This document shows, in pieces, positions 37,702 to 49,279 of a stretch of 64,000 nucleotides of DNA. The stretch is taken from NCBI GenBank assembly GCA_025916135.1, contig CP104793.1, positions 3,286,001 through 3,350,000 on the forward strand, written 5' to 3'. Below the pieces are notes generated by a model. The model was not told where the DNA came from. It saw only the letters and a list, made by a program, of their open reading frames with translations, and made no database searches. Position 1 is the first letter of the stretch; every line of letters starts with the position of its first letter. This stretch comes from Rhodobacteraceae bacterium D3-12. Its GTDB lineage: Bacteria; Pseudomonadota; Alphaproteobacteria; Rhodobacterales; Rhodobacteraceae. A program made the translations under genes and the position numbers.

Positions 37702-38448
37702 TTACGAGAAGTAATCGCTGGTTCGAAACAGAACCGCTTGGCTGGTTGTTGTGTCGATTGTGAACTTGCTTCCAATCGGGGTCGCCTTGGCCCCAAGCCT
37801 ACGTCCCCACCGTGACCAAAGCTCAGGAACGATACCAAGGATATAATTCGCCCCGTTTTCCACAGCCGTTTTGCTCATGGCATGAAAAAGCATACTCTGG
37901 ACCCGAAGCCGAAGCCGCGCGGGAACCGCATCGGTCACGAAAAACCGCGTCGCCTCCCAGACATTGTCCTCGACCGGGGCCTCAAAAAACAAAATGTCGG
38001 TGGGGAGATCGTCAAGCAGCCCCTGCTGCGCGTCACGAATCATATAACTATAGATACCGCAGCTGGATTTTGTCGGCATCACCCTGACACCGCCAAGCAC
38101 TTCGCCATGTTGGTGGAGCACGATCCAGCGGCAAAATGGCGTGTCGTATTGATCAAACTCCATGCCATCGGCGGTTGATACAGTCCAATGCAGCTGGTCC
38201 AGAAAGATTTCCTTCCTGACTTCAAGGTATCGCACCAGCAGATCGCCATATTTACTCATATTGCGAAAGGAAATGCTTGCGGTCTGGATATGGTCAAGTG
38301 TTCGAACCGGATCCGGGTCACGCTTCTCGACAGATGGCGTTACCTTGGCACGCAAGCGGCTTTGCCAATCGCCGGGCATTTGCCCCTTGATCGCGGGACC
38401 GACTAAGGCATCTGGCAAAGTCATTGATGGCATCCAAGAGCGGTTCAT
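37702..38448 (-). CDS. LuxI-type acyl-homoserine lactone synthase
   Basis: The catalytic core is conserved: VRKEIFLDQLHW holds the invariant Arg, Phe and Trp, MEFDQYD gives the Glu/Asp/Asp cluster, GGVRVMPT the Arg, and WEATRFFV the Glu and Arg of the LuxI family. These enzymes join SAM and an acyl carrier or CoA to make a diffusible quorum signal. At 248 residues it is longer than usual because of about 60 extra N-terminal residues; ATG codons at residues 6, 9 and 64 could be the true start. No LuxR-type receptor is within the window, so it is an orphan synthase here. Confidence 0.82.
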   Translation of the reverse strand: MNRSWMPSMTLPDALVGPAIKGQMPGDWQSRLRAKVTPSVEKRDPDPVRTLDHIQTASISFRNMSKYGDLLVRYLEVRKEIFLDQLHWTVSTADGMEFDQYDTPFCRWIVLHQHGEVLGGVRVMPTKSSCGIYSYMIRDAQQGLLDDLPTDILFFEAPVEDNVWEATRFFVTDAVPARLRLRVQSMLFHAMSKTAVENGANYILGIVPELWSRWGRRLGAKATPIGSKFTIDTTTSQAVLFRTSDYFS

Positions 38449-38683: not shown

Positions 38684-39481
38684 CTATGAATTGGAATAGA
38701 TAAACTGCCAAGTGCTCAAAACAGAGGCACAATCCGCGGCGCCAATCGCCGCCAGCAAGCGCTCGTCGCCATCGGTCGCAATCACCATCTGATGACCCGC
38801 ACCAAGCGTCTGCACGATACAGGTGGGCTCTGCCCGCCCCAAGGTTTTCAACCCCTTACGCGTAGCATGTTGAGTCTCAGCAATCCGGTCAAGCAGATCG
38901 AGTCGTTGCAAAAGGTCTTTTTGCCCACCCTGCCGCACGCCTTTATCTGCCCCCTGATGAAGGACACAGGCCTTCGCACAGCCTCTCACCGATTGAAAGA
39001 ACGCCAACAAGCGGTTGCCCCGTTGCAACCGCGCGCTCGCCTGCTCAAGTGTCGCCGCCGAACAGGAGGCGCTGCTTGTGGTTGGCGCAACCGCACGCCC
39101 GAGCCGCTTCAGGGAAACCCCGGGCGTCACTTCTCCAATCTTGCGCAAAACCTGAGCATAGGTGAGCGACGCCAAGCGCCCGTCGCTGTCGCCGTCGGGT
39201 TCAATCTCCGCTCCGGTTGACCCAAGCTCAAGCATGCGCCGGTTTGCCAAGACCATCGCGGCCTCGACCCCGTTAGGTGACACAACGGCAATCTTGCGCG
39301 GCAAAATAGCACCGTCGATTTCTTCAATGACACTGCGCAAAAGCGCATCACCATCGGTGATCGGTTTGTGAGCCTCTGCCAGAACCGCATCACGTTCCAT
39401 GGCGGTCCGCTGCAATGTCTCGCGCAAACGGCGGCTAAACGCGCCGCGATCTTCGCTAAGAACTTTGGCCGGGGTGCCCAT
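38684..39481 (-). CDS. Roadblock/LC7-like protein, last gene of the GTPase operon
   Basis: This 265-residue protein has an unrecognised N-terminal half (helical start SRRLRETLQRTAMERDA, then AILPRKIAVVSPNGVEAAM). The C-terminal half has the strand-helix pattern of roadblock/LC7 domains: KACVLHQGADKG, the helix LLQRLDLLDRIA, and ACTIVQTLG-like strand CIVQTLGAGHQMVIATDG. It begins at ATG 39481, overlapping the stop of the previous gene (TGATG), so it is translationally coupled. Roadblock proteins typically bind small GTPases as activators or scaffolds, as MglB does for MglA. The family call is tentative. Confidence 0.45.
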   Translation of the reverse strand: MGTPAKVLSEDRGAFSRRLRETLQRTAMERDAVLAEAHKPITDGDALLRSVIEEIDGAILPRKIAVVSPNGVEAAMVLANRRMLELGSTGAEIEPDGDSDGRLASLTYAQVLRKIGEVTPGVSLKRLGRAVAPTTSSASCSAATLEQASARLQRGNRLLAFFQSVRGCAKACVLHQGADKGVRQGGQKDLLQRLDLLDRIAETQHATRKGLKTLGRAEPTCIVQTLGAGHQMVIATDGDERLLAAIGAADCASVLSTWQFIYSNS

Positions 39482-39854
39482 CACGCAGCCTCCGCCATTT
39501 CGTGAAAAATTCCTTGCGCGAAAGCTCTGATCTCGCTCAGCGCATCGGCATTTTCACACACGCAAACAACCACATCGGTTTTGCTGTCTTGAGAGCGGAT
39601 AAACACCCGCAATTCACCCGGCGTGGCGATCAAAACCTCGTTTTGGCAAACCCCCTCCTCCGCGACAGAGGCAACCGCATCGGACGCGTCAAAGCGTAAC
39701 GCTGCCTGTTGCAGGATTTGATCCAGATAATCCTGCTTGGCGCCCGCGCCGCGCTTGTGCGCAACACAAGCCCGCTGGACAGGTCGCCAAAAGACACCAG
39801 CACACAGTCGGCAACGCCACGGCGCATGTCTTCAAGGCGTTCGGTCAGGCTCAT
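39481..39854 (-). pseudogene. Roadblock/LC7-like small protein, frameshifted
   Basis: The ATG at 39854 has GGGGGACGG upstream and starts MSLTERLEDMRRGVADCVLV, then SFGDLSSGLVLRTSA. Adding one base near 39738-39756 continues the frame as GAKQDYLDQILQQAALRFDA, EEGVCQNEVLIATPGELRVF and ends IFHEMAEAA with a stop that overlaps the next start (TGATG). The repaired protein has about 124 residues and a roadblock-like order of strands and helix. The exact coupling to both neighbours indicates a real gene broken by a base error. Confidence 0.6.
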
Positions 39855-39894
39855 CACCGTCCCCCACCGGCTTGCATATGCAGAACCGCGCGCG

Positions 39895-40821
39895 TCATAG
39901 CCCCATACCGGCAAGCGAACTGGGTCGCATCGTCTGCCCACGCATCTCGGTCAGCACGCGCACGCGCTTGGGCACGACGCTGCTCTCGTTGTAAATCACC
40001 GGTTCGGGCGCCGCCTCCGGTGCGGCTGTTTGGCTCGCCACATCGGCAATCTCCGCATCCTCCGCCAGCACCGCATGTTGCGCCTGCGTTTTGCCCTGAA
40101 CCTGAACCTGCCCCGATGGCTGCAACAGCAACTCCACCACGTGATCGACAAACTCGGCCGCACCGCTGGCTTGCCACTTGGCGAAATCATCACCGGCATT
40201 GATCGCCTCAAGTATCGAAATCGGGTAAACCGCCTTGAAAAGCCCTTTGGTTTCTTTACCCACGCGCGCCATCACACGCTCCACATCCCGCTCAGAGCGA
40301 AGCTTGTCCACTTGGGTCACCAACAGAATGTTGTCCCCATTGGTCCGCTCTTTGATCATCTCCCACGCCGCCGCTTCCGACTGGCGCCAAGCCTGCGTTG
40401 CAAGGGTGCACCAGACCACGCTATCGACCTCGTCCAGCACGGATTTCCACACATCCGGCGACATGCTCGGATCGGAAATGCCCGGCATGTCGATCAAATC
40501 ACAAATTTCCAGCGTTTCGGATCGGCTGAACAGCCGGATCAACCGCGTCTCTTCCAATCGCACGTCTTCCAACGCGTTGACGTCAATCGCGGTCTCCACT
40601 CCATCATGCCCAACCGCAAACGCCGCCTCGTCGCCATAGCTCATCCAAACCGGCGGCAGACGCGTTGCCGTGATCTGCACTGGCAATGGCGCATTGCCAA
40701 GAAACAGCTTCGACAAAGTGCTTTTTCCCGCGCTGAATTCGCCCATGAAAGCCAGCCGGGGTTTGTCCGCTGCTGCGGCGTTGAGTGTGTCGGTGTGGGT
40801 CACTGTCGTCTCCTTGTTCAT
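39895..40821 (-). CDS. Dynamin-family-like GTPase
   Basis: This 308-residue GTPase has G1 GEFSAGKST at 27-35, G3 DMPG at 111-114 with ISDPSMSPDVW after it, and G4 as TQVDK at 169-173. The GEFSAGKS form is typical of dynamin-like and related large GTPases. Unlike its neighbour it lacks a long helical stalk; after the G domain comes a low-complexity tail (QVQVQGKTQAQHAVL, AAPEAAPEP). It may work together with the 687-residue dynamin encoded 29 bases upstream, as bacterial dynamins often occur in pairs. Confidence 0.82.
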   Translation of the reverse strand: MNKETTVTHTDTLNAAAADKPRLAFMGEFSAGKSTLSKLFLGNAPLPVQITATRLPPVWMSYGDEAAFAVGHDGVETAIDVNALEDVRLEETRLIRLFSRSETLEICDLIDMPGISDPSMSPDVWKSVLDEVDSVVWCTLATQAWRQSEAAAWEMIKERTNGDNILLVTQVDKLRSERDVERVMARVGKETKGLFKAVYPISILEAINAGDDFAKWQASGAAEFVDHVVELLLQPSGQVQVQGKTQAQHAVLAEDAEIADVASQTAAPEAAPEPVIYNESSVVPKRVRVLTEMRGQTMRPSSLAGMGL

Positions 40822-40850
40822 TCAACCTCTATCCAGCCATCGCGCGGTTC

Positions 40851-42914
40851 TCATGCGGCATAGCCGCGAAGCTCATCCAGCGTGCTTTCAAGCGCCGCTC
40901 GACCGCCCTGCGCATTCATGGAAAGAAGCCGGTCTTCAACGTCACCGTCGCCTTGCCCTTGTGATATCAGGTCAAACAGAATGGCTTTCTGCTCGGCCAG
41001 AAACCGGACAAGCTCGGCCTCAAGGGCATCGCGAATCTGACTGGTCTGAACGACCTTCATCTGGGTCATGAAATCTTCGGTTTCGGCGCGGATCAGATCC
41101 TGAAACTGCTTGGCAAACGCCTTGTAACCGCGCCGCCGCCGCCACCACGACACCCACCAGCTATCATTGAAATCAAGCGCGATCGTCTGTCCAAGGGCAA
41201 CTGGTGACGGGATGGCCGGAGCTTCTGGAACCCCGATCTGCACGCCCTCAACCACCGGACCAAACCCGCGATAAAGAAGCAGCGCCACCTCTGAAACTGT
41301 CGCCTCATATTGCGCCATGGCCTCCTTGCGCATCCGCGCCCCCATGGTCGAATAGGTCGAGCGCAACAAGATACGAAGCCCCGCCGGATCATACTCCCAA
41401 ACCTCAAGCTCACCATAGCGCTCAAGGTGCTCCAACAGCGAATGGGTGGCCCGCTCAATGAACGTATTATGCACCCGATCCGCGCGCTCACAATACGCAG
41501 CCAGTATCGCGCTCATCGCCCGGTCAAACCGCGCCCGGCTCGCCGTTTCCAGCTTTTCAAACGCGCCCGCCATATCCGCCAAAGCCACCTCAGGCTCAAA
41601 GTCATCGCTCTCAACCATAACCGAGCGCGCCGCGGTTTGTGACGACGCAATCGCCACCGCAGAAGAGGCAACCTTCTTGAGGCAAGGCACGCCAAGGCTT
41701 GTCACGATTTGCGAGGACAAGGCCTGCATCAACATCGGCAAGCCTGAGATTTCCCAAACCAGAGAGGCCGGCGATTGGTCGAGCTCGGTCGAGCCGAGCA
41801 CCGCCTTGGTCAGTTTGAGCAGCGCATCGGCGCTGGCCTCATGCATGTCGCCCAATTCGTCGTTCAACACCTTGCCCGCCCAATAGGCGCTGCCAAAAAT
41901 GATCTCTGCATCTTTTGGGCCATCGTGATTGGCCAAGGTGTTGCGAATGCTGTCTTCGATCTCGGTCATCTGGTTGGCCGGGTCCGACAGCTCATCAATG
42001 CGGTTCACAAAAATGATCACCTCACGCGACTTAAGGTTCGAGATCATACGGATCAGCGCCATATCAACCGAGGTCAGAGCCTGACTGGCAGACAGAACAA
42101 CCACGCAAATCCGGCTGTCTCGAAGCGCGCGGATCGTCACCATTTCGCGCATCATGAACGTATCGTTTACCCCCGGAGTGTCGCGCAAACACATGCGGAA
42201 CGGCACTGACCGGCAATTCAGATAAAGCTCGGCCGACCGGGTGATATCCGCGAACCGGCCCTGCTCATCCTCCGGCGCGCCCGCCTCTTCCTCGTCGAAA
42301 TCGTCGCCAAGACAGATATAGCGTTCAAGCAGGTTCTTGTCGAAGTAACCGAACTCATGCTGCTGCCCCATCAACAGCTCGAAATTCCGCCCCAACCGCG
42401 CGCGGGACTTGTCGCGCATCGTTTCGATCTGGTCCTGAATGCGGCTCAACTCGCTCTCCGAGCCGGCGCGCCCGGCCAATTCACCGATCCGCCCGCCCTT
42501 GTCCGTCAGCCGATCCCATTCCTCTTCGGTCATGAACTGGAAACTCGCGCCCGTTTCGGCCCGCTCCTCCGCCGGGGTCAAATGCAGCGAGGTCACAACC
42601 GAGGTCCAAGGGTTAACATCCGAAGGCAAAAGATCGGTCCAACCCGCCATCGCATTGATCAAAGAGGTCTTGCCCGATTTCACCTGCCCAAGCACCGTAA
42701 CGCTCGGCTCAAACGCAGCAAGCTGCTGCTTGAGACGCGTCACCGTGCGACGGCTCTGCTCACCGGCCAACTGCCCAAGCCTGTCCAAGGCACCCTCAAG
42801 CGCAAGCGCCTCACTTGCGAAGGTCTCAAGCTCTTCCATACCCGTTCTGAGCTTGGCCGAACCGCCCGACGGCCGGATTTCAGTGGCTGCTTCGAATGTC
42901 TCGTTGATCTTCAT
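40851..42914 (-). CDS. Bacterial dynamin-like protein
   Basis: This 687-residue protein has a GTPase domain with G1 GQVKSGKTS (76-84), G3 DTPG (245-248) and G4 NRID (304-307), followed by a long helical region of about 350 residues, as in bacterial dynamin-like proteins that remodel membranes. A tryptophan- and arginine-rich patch (DSWWVSWWRRRRGYKAF) in the last quarter is a good candidate for a membrane-binding paddle. I start at ATG 42914 (MKINETFEAATE). A 97-base gap separates it from the upstream gene, the longest in the operon. Confidence 0.85.
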   Translation of the reverse strand: MKINETFEAATEIRPSGGSAKLRTGMEELETFASEALALEGALDRLGQLAGEQSRRTVTRLKQQLAAFEPSVTVLGQVKSGKTSLINAMAGWTDLLPSDVNPWTSVVTSLHLTPAEERAETGASFQFMTEEEWDRLTDKGGRIGELAGRAGSESELSRIQDQIETMRDKSRARLGRNFELLMGQQHEFGYFDKNLLERYICLGDDFDEEEAGAPEDEQGRFADITRSAELYLNCRSVPFRMCLRDTPGVNDTFMMREMVTIRALRDSRICVVVLSASQALTSVDMALIRMISNLKSREVIIFVNRIDELSDPANQMTEIEDSIRNTLANHDGPKDAEIIFGSAYWAGKVLNDELGDMHEASADALLKLTKAVLGSTELDQSPASLVWEISGLPMLMQALSSQIVTSLGVPCLKKVASSAVAIASSQTAARSVMVESDDFEPEVALADMAGAFEKLETASRARFDRAMSAILAAYCERADRVHNTFIERATHSLLEHLERYGELEVWEYDPAGLRILLRSTYSTMGARMRKEAMAQYEATVSEVALLLYRGFGPVVEGVQIGVPEAPAIPSPVALGQTIALDFNDSWWVSWWRRRRGYKAFAKQFQDLIRAETEDFMTQMKVVQTSQIRDALEAELVRFLAEQKAILFDLISQGQGDGDVEDRLLSMNAQGGRAALESTLDELRGYAA

Positions 42915-43011
42915 TCTATACCCGGTTTCAGTTTGCGCTTGAGTGTTAAACACCCGTTTCGACTTCTCAGATCGGCCCGTCTGGGCTCTAGGCTGCGGTG
43001 AAGAAAACCCA

Positions 43012-43575
43012 TCACACCGCCGTTTTCTCGATAAGTTCTTTTCTGATCTGCAACAAAAGAGTCGCCGCATCCAATGCCGCTTCATCCCCGCGCTCAAGCT
43101 GGAACAACATCAACATTTCCTCCCCCTCCTGCACATCATCACGTAACTCCCGCAGAGCAGGATCGTCCGATTTCGCGGTGTTCAGCAGATCAAACAGGCT
43201 CGCCATCGCGTCGGTGCAACTGCGCAAAACCGCGTCGGCCTCCAGCCCCCCGCTCTGGTCAAGATCGTCCAACATTCGGATGGCTTGATCCTGCAACAGG
43301 TCCACAGCATCAGACAGCAAATCAGCCGTCGCATCATCGCCCGCACCCTCCTTTGCCCGCTCAATTTTCTCGCTCACATCCGACAGCAACGCATCGGCAT
43401 CTTCTGGGGTTTGCGGCGCTTGCTTTGGCGTCGCATCGGGCTGTGTCTCGGCTTGGGGCGCTTCGCTATCGTCTTCGGCGTCAATCGACCAAAGCGCCAA
43501 ACGGTCAAGGAAAACCACCGCCTGATCTATGTCGGCGGCGCGCCCTGATTTGATTTGCTGGCGCAGCGGTGCCAT
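43012..43575 (-). CDS. Acidic helical protein of the GTPase operon
   Basis: This protein of about 187 residues starts at ATG 43575, which overlaps the upstream stop (TGATG). It contains no recognised motif; composition is acidic and strongly helical (ADLLSDAVDLLQDQAIRMLD, REKLDDVQ-like turns, LDAATLLLQIRKELIEK). A proline- and glutamine-rich linker lies at about residues 40-60. It may be an adaptor for the neighbouring GTPases. Function unknown. Confidence 0.65.
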   Translation of the reverse strand: MAPLRQQIKSGRAADIDQAVVFLDRLALWSIDAEDDSEAPQAETQPDATPKQAPQTPEDADALLSDVSEKIERAKEGAGDDATADLLSDAVDLLQDQAIRMLDDLDQSGGLEADAVLRSCTDAMASLFDLLNTAKSDDPALRELRDDVQEGEEMLMLFQLERGDEAALDAATLLLQIRKELIEKTAV

Positions 43576-44309
43576 CAACTGCGCCCCCCGCTCGAGCGCC
43601 ACAACGCGTCGTCCAACGACTCGCCCGCAGTTTGCGCCACAATGCCTTGGATCGTGGCGATGGGGAAAAGCCCCATGAACTCTTCGGCCACAATCGGCGC
43701 CAGCCGCTCAATATTGCTCGTCAATGACCCGCGCATCACCTGCCGGTCCGCCATGGCCAAAACCAAGAAGCTGTGATCCTTGATCTGGTCGGGCACCTCG
43801 GCCCAAAGGGCTTGCTCCTCCGGACCGAATGTCTCGCTGCACCAGATAACGACATCACCCCGCGCAATGACCGCCTCAAGCGCCGCATATTTCTGCTCCG
43901 GGCTACCGCGCAAACCGATCTCGACAAAGTTATGACTGCGCAGCCCATCGTCGGGCAATTCCTGCCGCGCCAACACCGCATCAACCGGGCATGTGCAATC
44001 CTTCAACACCCCGCCCTCGGTGATCACGGACCCATCGCTTTTCTCAAACAGCGCCCGTTCGCTCTCGCCAAAGGCAAGCTCGGTAACCGGCACATCAAGC
44101 TGATGCCCGATGACCGGACGCCCCGACATCATTTCAATCAACGCCGATTTACCGCTGCTTCTGAACCCGGTCACAACCACCTGAACCGGCTTGTTCAAAT
44201 GCGACAAAAGCCGTGCACCCCAACGGTCATAAGGCGCAGGAACAACCTTGTTCTCCAGAACAAATTCCAGCCGATCAATCACCGGGCTAAGTCCATGTGC
44301 AAGGGTCAT
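43575..44309 (-). CDS. P-loop GTPase-like protein
   Basis: This product of about 244 residues has a Walker A/G1 motif GFRSSGKS at 48-55 in VVVTGFRSSGKSALIEMMSG, followed by TELAFGE and a strand with VVIWCSET. A canonical NKxD motif is not obvious (LAMADRQ occupies the likely G4 place), so nucleotide specificity is uncertain. The ATG at 44309 is supported by AAAGG upstream. It is the first of three P-loop proteins in the operon and is coupled to the next gene. Confidence 0.7.
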   Translation of the reverse strand: MTLAHGLSPVIDRLEFVLENKVVPAPYDRWGARLLSHLNKPVQVVVTGFRSSGKSALIEMMSGRPVIGHQLDVPVTELAFGESERALFEKSDGSVITEGGVLKDCTCPVDAVLARQELPDDGLRSHNFVEIGLRGSPEQKYAALEAVIARGDVVIWCSETFGPEEQALWAEVPDQIKDHSFLVLAMADRQVMRGSLTSNIERLAPIVAEEFMGLFPIATIQGIVAQTAGESLDDALWRSSGGRS

Positions 44310-44331
44310 AAGCGGCCTTTCATGAGCAGCG

Positions 44332-45273
44332 TCATCCAACAACTTTCTTGGGTCGCTTAATCTTGGCGATGATGGTGATCGACGTATCCGCATAGGTGCT
44401 CGAGCGCGTGAGCGACCTGTCGATCTGATCCTCTTGCGCCTGCGCGCCCTGTTCCATGGACTGCCCCATGGATTGGCCCATCTCCCGCCCCACAGCCTTG
44501 ATAATACACAAGGAAACATTGTCCTGCTGCGGATCGTTCAGCTTGCTCAACGCCCCCAAAAGCGCGCCACCAATGTCATCGGCACTGCGCTTTTGCGCAA
44601 ACCGCAACACGCGCTCGATCTCTTCTTCGTTCAGAAACTGAAGCCCATCACTGGCCGCAATCAGAATATCACCCGCTTCGATACGAACAGGCAGGCTCCG
44701 GCAATCGACCTGAGCAATCTTCTTGCCAATCAAGACCGAGGTCAGACAGGTCTGATCGGGATAGCTCAGCGCCTCTTCGCGCGCCATAATGCCGCTCTCA
44801 ACTATGTATTCTATCTGCGATTCAAGCGCGTGGTTCTCGTTCAACCGCTCAAGCTTGTTGTTGCGAAACAGGTAGAGCGGGCTGTCCCCGACAGACACCC
44901 AATAGAGCCGGTCCCCAAACAGAACCGGCGCCAACAAGGTCGCCCCCATTCCGCCCGCTTCGACGCGCTCATTTGCATAAAGCCCGACACATTCATTGGC
45001 GTTCGCTGTCGCGTTTCTCAGCACATCGCAAATCTTGGGCTCCAACACCTTGGGATCCCCCGACGCCAGCTTTAGCGCGCTGAACACTTCGGTCACCACA
45101 ATTTTGCTCGCCACGTCGCCTGCCGCATGACCGCCCATACCATCGGCCAGCACGACAAACCCAAACGCTTCCCCAGCCGAAAAATCAGACGCCACAGCAT
45201 CTTCCTGGCGCTCGCGTTGTCCCAGGATCGACGCCATCGACGTATCGTATTTCAACTCAGCTGTTGACGGCAT
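44332..45273 (-). CDS. PP2C-family protein phosphatase
   Basis: This 313-residue metal-dependent Ser/Thr phosphatase has the family motifs in order: GQRERQEDAV (18-27), VVLADGMGGHAAGD (40-53), MGATLLA, VSVGDSPLYLF, LIAASDGL and QDNVSL. It would remove phosphates added by the kinase encoded first in this operon. The ATG at 45273 overlaps the end of the FHA gene by 17 bases. The C-terminal tail after the domain (AKIKRPKKVVG) is basic and may contact membrane. Confidence 0.92.
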   Translation of the reverse strand: MPSTAELKYDTSMASILGQRERQEDAVASDFSAGEAFGFVVLADGMGGHAAGDVASKIVVTEVFSALKLASGDPKVLEPKICDVLRNATANANECVGLYANERVEAGGMGATLLAPVLFGDRLYWVSVGDSPLYLFRNNKLERLNENHALESQIEYIVESGIMAREEALSYPDQTCLTSVLIGKKIAQVDCRSLPVRIEAGDILIAASDGLQFLNEEEIERVLRFAQKRSADDIGGALLGALSKLNDPQQDNVSLCIIKAVGREMGQSMGQSMEQGAQAQEDQIDRSLTRSSTYADTSITIIAKIKRPKKVVG

Positions 45274-46525
45274 GAGACCAGTCACCTTCGTCCGTGTCGT
45301 CCCAAACAAAATCCGGGCCACACAGCGGCACAAACCGCAAAACTGTTTCGCCGATGGTGATCTTGTCACCCGCCGCAAGCTCCTCTGTGCTCAGCACCGG
45401 GCGATCATTGCGCCGCACAAGGTTCGCTTTGCCGCCATGACCGATAAAGAAGCACTTTTGCGCCGCGTCAAAGGCAATGGCCGCGTGATTGTCGCGCGAA
45501 ATGCTATTGTCCCCGAAATCGAGCGCAACAGTCTGATCCTTGCCGCGCCCGATCTTGCTGACACCGCTAAAAATCGTAAAGGCCGCACCGCGCCCCGGCC
45601 CCTCCGTAACAATAAGCCAGCCAAGCGGGAATTTGGAAAAGCTCGCAACACTGGCCTCCGAACTGCTTGCAATCGGGTCGGCCTCGTTCTCTGGGCCCGC
45701 ATTGAACCCCAAAAGCCGCGTTTTCACCCGCCCTTGCCGGTTTGCACCGCGTCCAATGGCTAGGTTTGGCACCTCGACGGGTTGCGTTTCGGGGGTGGCG
45801 GGCGCGGCGCTCTGGCGGGGCGCTTCGGTCACCGGCTTTGGGGCCTCCGCGCGCGGCTGTGGCGTTGGCATTGCGCGTGTCTGCTCTGCTGTTGGCTGAG
45901 CGGTCGGCGACGGGGCGGGCTGAGGCGCAGGCCGCGGAGTGGGCCGCGGAGTGGGCGCAACAAACGCCGCAGCCTCCTCAACAGCCTCCTCCACAGTCGG
46001 CACAACAGGCGCGGCCTCTTCGAACACCGGCTCCTGCGCCTGCTTCATCGAGGCGGCCAAACCTCGCATCGCCGCCACGGCGTCCTCGGGCGAGCGTTGG
46101 CTCGCGCCACCCGGCTCGCTATCGCGGGCATCAATTTCTTCCTGCTCCGAGAACCCGGCAAGAATATCGGCAAAATCGTCGTCGTCCTCCTGCACAGGAT
46201 CGGCTTGCCCCAAACCGTCGGGCATCGCCCCGTCCTGTGCCAACTCATAGTCCGCCAGATCAAGCTCTGACACGGCCGGCTCCGGATCGTCCATGAAATC
46301 GCTCAAGCGAGTCTCGGGCTCAAGGGTGAAAGGGTCCGCTGCCCCCGTCGCATTCCGTGCGGTGCGCAAGCCAGAGGTCGGCTCCGCCTCAGACCCGATT
46401 TCAGGCTCCATTTCGGGCGCAAAATCATCCGCAAACAAACTGCTCGATCCGTTGGCGGCGGCGACCTCGCTGGTCTGCTCGTTCATCTGGCGTTTTTCGC
46501 CAATGATATCCCGAATAAATTTCAT
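45257..46525 (-). CDS. FHA-domain protein with long acidic, proline-rich linker
   Basis: This 422-residue protein ends in a forkhead-associated domain at about 320-405: GVSKIGRGKDQTVAL, then NSISRDNHAAIAFD, which gives the GR, S and H phosphothreonine-binding pattern. The first 300 residues are acidic then proline-rich (TPRPTPRPAPQPAPSP), probably unstructured, with threonines that the upstream kinase could phosphorylate. FHA domains dock phosphothreonine peptides, so it likely serves as the scaffold between the kinase, phosphatase and GTPases. The ATG at 46525 has AAAGGACG upstream. Confidence 0.88.
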   Translation of the reverse strand: MKFIRDIIGEKRQMNEQTSEVAAANGSSSLFADDFAPEMEPEIGSEAEPTSGLRTARNATGAADPFTLEPETRLSDFMDDPEPAVSELDLADYELAQDGAMPDGLGQADPVQEDDDDFADILAGFSEQEEIDARDSEPGGASQRSPEDAVAAMRGLAASMKQAQEPVFEEAAPVVPTVEEAVEEAAAFVAPTPRPTPRPAPQPAPSPTAQPTAEQTRAMPTPQPRAEAPKPVTEAPRQSAAPATPETQPVEVPNLAIGRGANRQGRVKTRLLGFNAGPENEADPIASSSEASVASFSKFPLGWLIVTEGPGRGAAFTIFSGVSKIGRGKDQTVALDFGDNSISRDNHAAIAFDAAQKCFFIGHGGKANLVRRNDRPVLSTEELAAGDKITIGETVLRFVPLCGPDFVWDDTDEGDWSHAVNS

Positions 46526-46536
46526 GGGTCGTCCTT

Positions 46537-47931
46537 TCAGGTTTCGATCAATTCTTCTGGATTGCGCTTGCGACCAACAAAGGAGCCAATCGCGCGTGCC
46601 AGAGCACTGCCAACGCTGGTTTGCCCGCCTTGCGCGAACGCCTCGCTGGCTTTTGTATTCGGCCCAGACCAACTCTTGGTCTGGCCTCCTGACGCGTGCT
46701 GGTGTCCGGATGTGTCGTGTTTTGTCTCTTTGTCTTGCTCCGCAAGCCATGCGTCGACATCGTCAACCGGGCTGCCAAACAGATCCACCAATCGCACGGG
46801 CGGCTCCTCGGCCTCCTCATCGGCGGACTGCGCTGCACCGCCTTCGCTCTCTTTCGCCTGGACAGATTCAAGCCGGCTGTTGGTGTCCTGAACCAACGAC
46901 GAAATCGCCTGAACAAGGTCCGGCTCCAGCTCGCGCGCCGGTGCATCCGGATCAACGACATCATTTACACCGCTGTTCTGTGGCGCGGCTTGCAGCCCCG
47001 CAGCACTGAGTGCTGACACCCCTTCAAGCGCGTCCAACCACTCGCCAACCGATTGGAAGCGGTCTTTTTGCGAAACCGACAACGCTTTGTCGATCGCCGC
47101 AAGAAACCCGGCGCAAAAACCCCAGTTCCCCTCGACAAGGGGCTTATAAGGGTCCGGCTCGCCCGAACTCAGCGTCAACAAACGCTTCTGGCAATCAAAC
47201 GGCGCGCGGCCGGTGATCACATGATAAAACGTTGCCCCCACCGAATAGAGATCGCTCGCCGGTTCCTGTTCGGTGTCAGAATAATAAAACTCATGCGGCG
47301 AATACCCGTCCTTCACCGCAAGCAGCGCCGACAGGACCCGCGTCTTGCGCCGCGCATCCTCACGCGCGGCCCCGAAATCGATCAACGTCAGCTTGTTATT
47401 GGCATCCAACAACAGATTGTCGGGCGAAATATCACGGTGCAACATGCCATAGGAATGCACATGATCCAGCGCATAGAGCGTGTCGCGCAGAAGCGATTCA
47501 AGCAGTTCATCCGTCAATCGCCCCGGATCCATGTCCATCATCGTCAACAGGTCCATCCCATCAACGAAATCCATCGCGAAATAGGCGGTGTTGTTCTCCT
47601 GAAATACCTGATGAACCTTTACGATGTTCGGGTGCTCAAACTTGGCCAACCGCAAGGCTTCGCGCAGAAAATTACGGATGACGCCTTGAAACTGTTCCTG
47701 ATACGCGGGCTTGCGCGGGCGCACCTCACCGTTGATCCGCCGACAGATCGTGCTCGGAAAGCACTCCTTGATCACAACGCGCCGCTCAAGGCTGTCGCGC
47801 GCCAGATAAGTCATGCCAAATCCACCATCAAGCAGGTGCCGCTCAATGGTGTATTGCCCATAAAGCAGCGTGCCCCCGGATGGCAGTTCATCGGTTTCAC
47901 TATCGTCAATCTGGTTCGTATTGTTCTGCAC
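46537..47931 (-). CDS. Serine/threonine protein kinase
   Basis: This 464-residue Hanks-type kinase has the glycine loop LLDGGFGMTYLA, catalytic Lys55 in VVIKE, HRDISPDN at 165-172 and DFGAAR at 185-190. A regulatory C-terminal half of about 180 residues is acidic and without a membrane helix, so the kinase is cytoplasmic. The start appears to be GTG at 47931 (MQNNTNQ). It is the first gene of a nine-gene operon and is followed after 11 bases by the FHA protein. Kinase, FHA and PP2C also occur together in type VI secretion control, but no secretion genes are present here. Confidence 0.92.
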   Translation of the reverse strand: MQNNTNQIDDSETDELPSGGTLLYGQYTIERHLLDGGFGMTYLARDSLERRVVIKECFPSTICRRINGEVRPRKPAYQEQFQGVIRNFLREALRLAKFEHPNIVKVHQVFQENNTAYFAMDFVDGMDLLTMMDMDPGRLTDELLESLLRDTLYALDHVHSYGMLHRDISPDNLLLDANNKLTLIDFGAAREDARRKTRVLSALLAVKDGYSPHEFYYSDTEQEPASDLYSVGATFYHVITGRAPFDCQKRLLTLSSGEPDPYKPLVEGNWGFCAGFLAAIDKALSVSQKDRFQSVGEWLDALEGVSALSAAGLQAAPQNSGVNDVVDPDAPARELEPDLVQAISSLVQDTNSRLESVQAKESEGGAAQSADEEAEEPPVRLVDLFGSPVDDVDAWLAEQDKETKHDTSGHQHASGGQTKSWSGPNTKASEAFAQGGQTSVGSALARAIGSFVGRKRNPEELIET

Positions 47932-48170: not shown

Positions 48171-48203
48171 AAAAAGCCGGGGCGACCTACATCGCCCCGG
48201 CTT
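48171..48203 (-). terminator. Rho-independent terminator of the TRAP gene
   Basis: A perfect 12-bp stem (AAGCCGGGGCGA at 48174-48185 with TCGCCCCGGCTT at 48192-48203) and a six-base loop. On the minus strand the stem is followed by a T run, 40 bases after the stop of the TRAP gene. Confidence 0.9.
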
Positions 48204-48243
48204 CATTTCGCATCATTCAAGCGGACTGGTGCCGCCAGACACC

Positions 48244-49279
48244 CTAGCCGCCGTGCTTCTTGATCAGCCCTTTAGCTTGGTTAATCAATGATTTACCATC
48301 AATGCCACGGGCCTCCATTTCGCTCATCCAGCGGTCGATCACCGGGCCGGACTTTTCTTTCCAACGGGCCACTTCAGCCGCATCCAGACGCACAATATTG
48401 TTGCCCCCATCTTCGGCAATCTTGCGTCCCGGCGCATCGCGATCAAACATCACCTGCGCCGCAAACCGCGACAGCTTCTGCCCCGACTCCGCGTCCAAAA
48501 TCGCCTTGAGATCATCTGGAAGCGCCTCATATTTGGCCTTGTTCATCACCAAAACGATGGTCGCGGTGTAAAGCGCCTCCTTGCCGGAAAACTCGGTATG
48601 GTTGCCGGCAAGCTCGGTCAATTTGATCGCCGGGGTCACTTCCCGGGAATCACCGTGCCGTCGATAACCCCCTTGGACAGCGCCTCGGGAATCGCCGGAA
48701 GCGGCATCCCCACCGGCGTCGCCCCCAGCTCTCTGAGCAGATCGGTGATCACCCGCGTCGGGCCGCGCAGCTTCTTGCCTTTCATATCTTCCAGCTTGGC
48801 CACCCCATCTTTGGTGTGGATAACGCCCGGCCCATGCACCCATGCGCCCAGAACCTTGAGATCGGCGTATTCCCCGGCCTGAAGATCGGTCTCGACCAAC
48901 TCCATGAACGCCGCAGACGTGGCAATCGGATCAGTCATCATAAAGGGCAGCTCGAACACTTCGGTTTTTGGGAACCGACCGGGCGTATACCCCACCACGG
49001 TCATCACCATATCCGCCGTGCCATCAATCGCCTGATCCATCAATTCCGGTGGCCGCCCTCCCAGCGCCATGGCGTCGAAATGGTCAATCTTGATACGGCC
49101 CCCCGATGCCTCCTCAACGGTTTTGGCCCATGGCTTCAGGATCAGCTTGGGCACGGTCGCGGGGGTGGCAAAAACTGATGCAGTCTAAGCGTCACGTCCT
49201 GCGCGCTGGCAAATGTCGGTGACAACGACAGGGCAAACGCCGCGGCTGCAACCCCTCTCAAAAATGTACGTTTCTCCAA
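48244..49279 (-). pseudogene. TRAP transporter substrate-binding protein (DctP type), two frameshifts
   Basis: Three successive frames spell one periplasmic binding protein of about 345 residues. TTG at 49279 with GGAGG upstream starts LEKRTFLRGVAAAAFALSLS, a signal peptide, then VTLRLHQFLPP. A base missing in the G5 run at 49161-49165 shifts to PKLILKPWAKTVEEASGG. A second missing base near 48641-48647 shifts to EVTPAIKLTELAGNHTEF and the end at 48244. DctP proteins deliver acids to the DctQM permease in an ion-driven system. No dctQ or dctM is visible. The gene follows the P450 by 42 bases and is probably co-transcribed. Confidence 0.8.

Follow-up and report, generated by a model that had tools for sequence, protein, structure and literature searches.

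Our analysis of a 64,000-nucleotide stretch of the genome of Rhodobacteraceae bacterium D3-12, a marine member of the Roseobacter group (contig CP104793.1, positions 3,286,001 to 3,350,000; hereafter the window) strongly supports the existence of one module that joins a circuit of a Hanks-type Ser/Thr kinase, an FHA protein and a PP2C-type phosphatase to dynamin-like GTPases and roadblock proteins. The genes form an operon that lies wholly on the minus strand of the window, running from 47931 to 38684, and we consider it almost certain that this operon is a functional module. Such a union had been proposed from the letters of the DNA alone (the sequence-only reading), and it is now borne out by conserved synteny, co-occurrence and a roadblock fold.

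Conservation and co-inheritance of the genes

A survey of 293 genomes of Rhodobacterales, scanned for the dynamin type, the FHA gene and the roadblock gene of the operon, found the dynamin type in 91 (about 30%). The FHA gene is present in 89 of these 91 genomes and the roadblock gene also in 89, and both lie no more than 20 kb from the dynamin at 88 of 95 loci (70/75 and 18/20); among the seven exceptions are loci at which the contig is short or the parts of the genome's module are scattered across several contigs. The co-occurrence of GTPase and roadblock genes with those of the kinase, FHA protein and phosphatase, singled out beforehand as the observation able to overturn the proposal, thus holds, and its formal P value (~1e-67) overstates the evidence since the genomes are related to one another. 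In none of the 293 genomes does the roadblock gene occur without the dynamin, whereas the FHA gene does so in four; at the 13 loci of a third, more distant dynamin group, both genes are absent. Matches to the roadblock gene span 36 genera. Outside the Rhodobacteraceae, the dynamin type was absent from our phylum sample and gave only weak partial matches in our class sample.

The order kinase, FHA protein, PP2C, P-loop protein, dynamin, second GTPase, gene 8 and gene 9 is kept in Roseovarius, Leisingera and Alexandriicola. At 22 close loci from the genome scan (these three genera and others), all eight genes are nearly always found in that order where the contig suffices, and at 21 further, more distant Rhodobacteraceae loci the order is kept with few losses. 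Because gene order is conserved across many genomes, chance juxtaposition is ruled out, and since the flanking genes vary between genomes, the conserved stretch begins and ends with the module itself. In Leisingera S132, on a plasmid, dynamin, GTPase, gene 8 and gene 9 occupy one strand and kinase, substrate-binding proteins (SBPs), FHA protein, PP2C and P-loop protein the other, the two blocks being adjacent and facing each other. Ruegeria-type loci have the order dynamin, second GTPase, gene 8, a gene 9-like open reading frame (ORF), second dynamin, P-loop protein, kinase, FHA protein and PP2C. That the parts stay together despite such rearrangement strengthens the linkage between them. Two loci of one genome (L104 and L105, genome G057) have kinase, FHA (with PP2C in L105), P-loop and roadblock genes, with the dynamin elsewhere in the genome; they could reveal which parts bind each other directly.

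The sequence-only reading counted nine genes in the operon. We count eight, because the small P-loop ORF (43575..44309) and the 'acidic' ORF that follows it (43012..43575) are the halves of one split gene, gtpA, which in relatives encodes a single protein, of about 375-430 amino acids (aa) in most of them; DNA alignment with relatives places the split at one base missing beside a G run, near 43590. On this comparison, the ancestral unit consists of eight genes. The single strand and tight spacing described earlier agree with the gene calls, all of which are on the minus strand with intergenic gaps of 11, 22, 97, 29 and 40 bases and overlaps at the remaining junctions.

Parts of the module

The kinase (464 aa, GTG start; 46537..47931), the FHA protein (422 aa; 45257..46525) and the phosphatase (313 aa; 44332..45273) match their Pfam families (Pkinase, E 7e-31; FHA, E 1e-4; PP2C_2, E 8e-13, with a Stp1-like match at E 4e-38) and, like the full dynamin described below, are what they had been taken for. 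Residue conservation was read from 44-47 aligned sequences for the kinase, PP2C, FHA protein, dynamin and second GTPase, and from 46 for the P-loop protein. The K, HRD and DFG of the kinase are retained in every aligned homologue covering them, and the metal-ligand Asp of the phosphatase wherever the alignment covers its position. The FHA protein consists of an acidic/proline-rich linker, a threonine (Thr269) within GRVKTRLLGF and then the FHA domain, whose closest solved relative is GarA (E 1.8e-5). Thr269 is identical in 44 of 44 aligned FHA proteins, as are G326, R327, S343, R344 and H347, the phospho-threonine-binding residues of the GarA/OdhI-type switch. A regular expression for GRVKTRLLGF matches 40 of 6594 ORFs across the loci, every one of them the FHA protein of this system. 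We infer that Thr269 is a candidate phospho-acceptor of the kinase. The N-terminal segment MKFIRDIIGEKR of the FHA protein is conserved in near relatives; its reading as a membrane-targeting amphipathic helix was dropped, the hydrophobic moment being no better than that of shuffles.

The kinase of the window has no hydrophobic or transmembrane (TM) segment and is hence soluble; at loci such as L058, L063, L065, L074, L077 and L078 the kinase has one TM segment. Beside the triad at L061, L074, L095 and L097 are two or three exported proteins with LysM-like and SBP_bac_3-like parts (LysM in six of eight members, best E 2.7e-7; SBP_bac_3 in five of eight), and at L102 and L104 their place is taken by a fusion of a PBP_like_2 domain to OmpA. 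The presence of two unlike fusions of a binding protein to a wall-binding part at the same triad suggests that periplasmic sensing feeds the triad in these variants, and envelope signals are the likely input in the set with a TM kinase, some members of which have the LysM-SBP proteins beside it. The periplasmic proteins are absent from the window operon and are carried by only a subset of loci. At three loci that lack the dynamin (L098, L103 and L107), the gene after the FHA gene encodes a protein of 800-900 aa that begins with a PP2C domain. These were first read as type VI secretion system (T6SS) loci from gene sizes, a reading dropped since Pfam finds at L107 MTTB, an M19 peptidase and one more FHA protein; L107, with a 669 aa FHA-domain protein alongside the MTTB and M19 peptidase genes, is a related phospho-signalling locus.

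The sequence-only reading also named three P-loop proteins, of which two stand as dynamin-type GTPases, the third being half of the frameshifted gtpA. The larger GTPase (687 aa; 40851..42914) matches Dynamin_N (Pfam, E 2e-14), Cj-DLP1 (5owv; E 5e-7) and the Nostoc BDLP (2j68; E 1e-6), and the key residues of its four G motifs, G1-G4, are present in 47 of 47 aligned sequences. The second GTPase (308 aa; 39895..40821) matches Dynamin_N (Pfam, E 2e-7) and, over residues 21-205, Cj-DLP2 (5owv_C; E 1e-10), and its diagnostic residues are retained in the aligned sequences; its counterparts in Ruegeria-type loci have about 530-670 aa. The operon thus has two neighbouring dynamin-type GTPase genes with G1-G4 motifs, one of the marks of a Cj-DLP1/2-type pair. 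The product of gtpA has a G1 and a G4-like motif and no recognisable G3, and its P-loop Lys is present in 38 of 46 aligned sequences; with this Lys lost in several relatives and G3 absent, it looks like a degenerate GTPase.

The two roadblock-like proteins of the sequence-only reading are genes 8 (39481..39854; about 125 aa in relatives) and 9 (265 aa; 38684..39481), and the fold prediction that it had called for separates them. The L032 homologue of gene 8, modelled with a pLDDT of 88.7, has the arrangement helix-strand-strand-helix-three strands-helix and superposes on MglB (3t12_B) with a Z score of 15.2 and an rmsd of 2.2 A over 117 residues, and the top structural matches are almost exclusively roadblock or longin domains. 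By this model, the product of gene 8 folds as a roadblock protein resembling MglB, an assignment made by fold because a sequence search against the PDB gave no relative. The case for gene 9 is weaker: in a model with a pLDDT of 88.5, residues 159-265 reach at best a Z score of 7.5 (Rag/FLCN complexes; rmsd 4.0 A), and two longin complexes, Mon1-Ccz1 and CPLANE, are among the first Foldseek matches, consistent with a longin/roadblock-like C-terminal half.

A second gene of roadblock-like type, c8, is present at other dynamin loci of the family and matches Robl_LC7 at E 0.001 in two of ten members; homology between c8 and gene 8 was not established by profile comparison (probability 11%). At five of these loci (L079, L080, L082, L084 and L089) the order is dynamin-GTPase-dynamin-GTPase with c8 upstream and no kinase, FHA or PP2C gene; the pairing of roadblock and dynamin genes recurs independently of the phosphorylation triad. 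Four others (L085, L086, L087 and L088; for example L087:8243-13429) have, in this order, an uncharacterised gene, a dynamin, a second GTPase, c8 and a PAS protein with a LOV-type motif (NCRFLQ or NCRFMQ), which suggests light- or flavin-linked control of a different dynamin pair.

Proposed mechanism and alternatives

We propose that the kinase would phosphorylate Thr269 of the FHA protein, that the phospho-threonine would occupy the FHA protein's own pocket or that of a partner, as in the GarA/OdhI switch, and that PP2C would reset the phosphorylated protein. The FHA and degenerate P-loop proteins would pass the phosphorylation state on to the two dynamin-like proteins, and the roadblock/longin proteins would set the GTP cycle of that pair as MglB does for MglA, in the manner of a GTPase-activating protein, a guanine nucleotide exchange factor or a scaffold. 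To judge from the dynamin family, the output would be recruitment together with a GTP-driven process that reshapes, tethers or repairs the cell membrane, and by analogy with dynamin biology such remodelling may serve tethering, fusion or protection. In some relatives, a TM kinase with exported LysM-SBP proteins beside it would take envelope signals as input. We lean slightly towards this whole chain, in which the operon is a dynamin module of Rhodobacteraceae that is self-contained and switched by phosphorylation. A more far-reaching reading, put forward tentatively at somewhat less than an even chance, is that of a bacterial signalling machine of a type not described before: Ser/Thr phosphorylation, with wall-anchored proteins that bind ligands in the periplasm as its input in some lineages, would act through the FHA switch and the roadblock/longin regulators on dynamin-driven membrane remodelling, so that roadblock proteins would act on dynamins and not on Ras-like GTPases.

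Several observations weigh against this reading. The second GTPase of the window has no helical stalk or trunk beyond its GTPase domain (308 aa, with a match ending near residue 205), and so cannot be a full Cj-DLP2 equivalent. None of 37 members of gene 8 matches Pfam Robl_LC7 (PF03259) at E 1, and the Z score of gene 9 is under the level that the tool deems safe. Kinase-FHA-PP2C-type genes occur without the dynamin in four genomes, meaning that outputs other than the dynamin are available to the triad; co-inheritance, as read from genome sequences, is no proof of physical interaction; and, if the two single-base indels of the operon are real, this genome's copy may be defective.

An anti-phage or prophage-control system, in which the kinase would respond to infection and the dynamin would then either hold back lysis or kill the host, has some precedent: DynA of B. 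subtilis slows phage lysis (PMC8844932), and a kinase-kinase-phosphatase module gives phage defence (PMC11341870). The distribution is patchy, with some copies on plasmids, and the kinase matches the PADLOC PD-T4-6 models at E 3e-43 and the dynamins, weakly, LeoA/LeoBC at E ~2e-6. The kinase matches, however, reflect the generic kinase domain; the component set of no system listed in PADLOC was strongly matched, six of nine ORFs having no match there, and comparison with PHROGs gave no useful match. The annotated neighbours at four plasmid loci and in the window flanks are metabolic, transport and regulatory genes, with no known defence genes among them, and the partners stay together in about 30% of sampled genomes, which would be unlike a fast-turnover defence gene. 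We consider this explanation unlikely. It is also improbable that the dynamin pair serves specifically to form outer-membrane vesicles or to release cargo, the role suggested for LeoABC. The LeoABC dynamins are tied to vesicle-associated release (PMC4159319), and the LysM-SBP and PBP-OmpA proteins near some copies of the module suggest periplasmic sensing, but these proteins occur at a subset of loci and not in the window, and the unit contains no secretion gene.

The frameshifts raise the question of whether the operon of this strain is a decaying copy, a pseudogene cluster with two of its eight genes broken. In addition to gtpA, gene 8 has one base fewer than in three relatives by DNA alignment (near 39743), is intact in relatives, and was found by a profile search of the genome as two halves in different frames. 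Set against these two 1-base deletions are six intact genes with their catalytic motifs kept, and frameshifts in the neighbouring DctP gene (48244-49154 of the window) and in a TssC gene 909 kb from the operon (L109; G000:C1:4236105-4237011), as assembly indels would give. That the DctP and TssC genes are also frameshifted points to assembly indels, the simplest and most likely cause of the operon frameshifts, rather than to decay, though real mutation is possible. Decay is quite improbable, and even if it were true, relatives have the intact system. A terminator-like hairpin (48173..48204, minus strand; 14-pair stem and T-rich tail, found by a consensus scan only) lies just upstream of the operon and 3' of the DctP gene, which encodes a TRAP substrate-binding protein, and divides it from the operon; a sigma-70 promoter scan gave fewer sites than shuffles. 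The next gene beyond the operon, read in the same direction, encodes a LuxI-type autoinducer synthase (37702-38448 of the window), after which come genes for a response regulator and a P450; this neighbourhood is not conserved alongside the module.

The sequence-only reading noted that kinase, FHA and PP2C triads control type VI secretion. A unit that controls a T6SS as PpkA-Fha-PppA does, the dynamins being accessory to it, has the same three enzyme types and a weak genome-level association in its favour (TssC in 27 of 69 module-bearing genomes against 33 of 147; P 0.014), but is very improbable and largely refuted by genome distribution and distance, since 42 of the 69 module-bearing genomes have no TssC and the distance between module and TssC, where they share a contig, ranges from 63 kb to 1.2 Mb, with 909 kb for D3-12.

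Comparison with known systems

The GTPase pair most resembles Cj-DLP1/Cj-DLP2 of Campylobacter jejuni (5owv), likewise two adjacent dynamin-type genes, the large one here corresponding to Cj-DLP1 and the second to Cj-DLP2. The Campylobacter proteins, which share one crystal structure, tether membranes, and their operon putatively includes an HcpA-like gene, with no kinase or roadblock gene mentioned (PMC6104087). They differ from the pair described here in that Cj-DLP2 has 614 aa, whereas our second GTPase is short and consists essentially of the GTPase domain. A small roadblock-fold protein near GTPases is also found in MglA-MglB/RomY of Myxococcus (PMC9481161; 6hjm, 3t12), to which gene 8 is linked by its Z score of 15.2; here, however, the GTPases are dynamin-type rather than Ras-like as MglA is, and there is no family-level sequence match.

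The PpkA-Fha-PppA threonine phosphorylation pathway of the T6SS (PMC5995506) has a kinase, an FHA protein and a PP2C phosphatase like those of the module. Unlike that pathway, the module is not in or near a T6SS cluster. To our knowledge, no phosphorylation circuit or roadblock gene has been reported for the LeoABC ('Eleos') dynamins. These too are a group of dynamins, with weak profile similarity to those of the module (PMC4159319). In the GlnH-GlnX-PknG-OdhI/GarA chain of Actinobacteria (PMC9769921), a periplasmic binding protein (as in some variants here), a Ser/Thr kinase and an FHA protein recur, as does a conserved Thr outside the FHA domain; GarA is the nearest relative of the FHA domain of the module, and the threonine sits in KTRLLGF, ahead of this domain. 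The output of that chain is 2-oxoglutarate dehydrogenase, whereas the genes linked to the module are dynamins.

The full set of components was not found in the open-access literature searched, a weak form of absence that agrees with the sequence-only reading, which knew of no described system with all of them. Each part is of a known kind, and the combination appears to be new as a variant of the bacterial dynamin operon; there is a real chance of its being a new kind of control system. The module provides a candidate regulator set for switching a bacterial dynamin on and off (a kinase, a phosphatase, an FHA switch with one invariant threonine and two roadblock/longin proteins) that is passed on along with the dynamin in dozens of genomes, including those of Leisingera, Roseovarius and Ruegeria. 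If the proposed mechanism is true, this would be the first case found of phosphorylation and roadblock control of a bacterial dynamin, and would parallel the way in which roadblock/longin proteins regulate membrane GTPases in eukaryotes.

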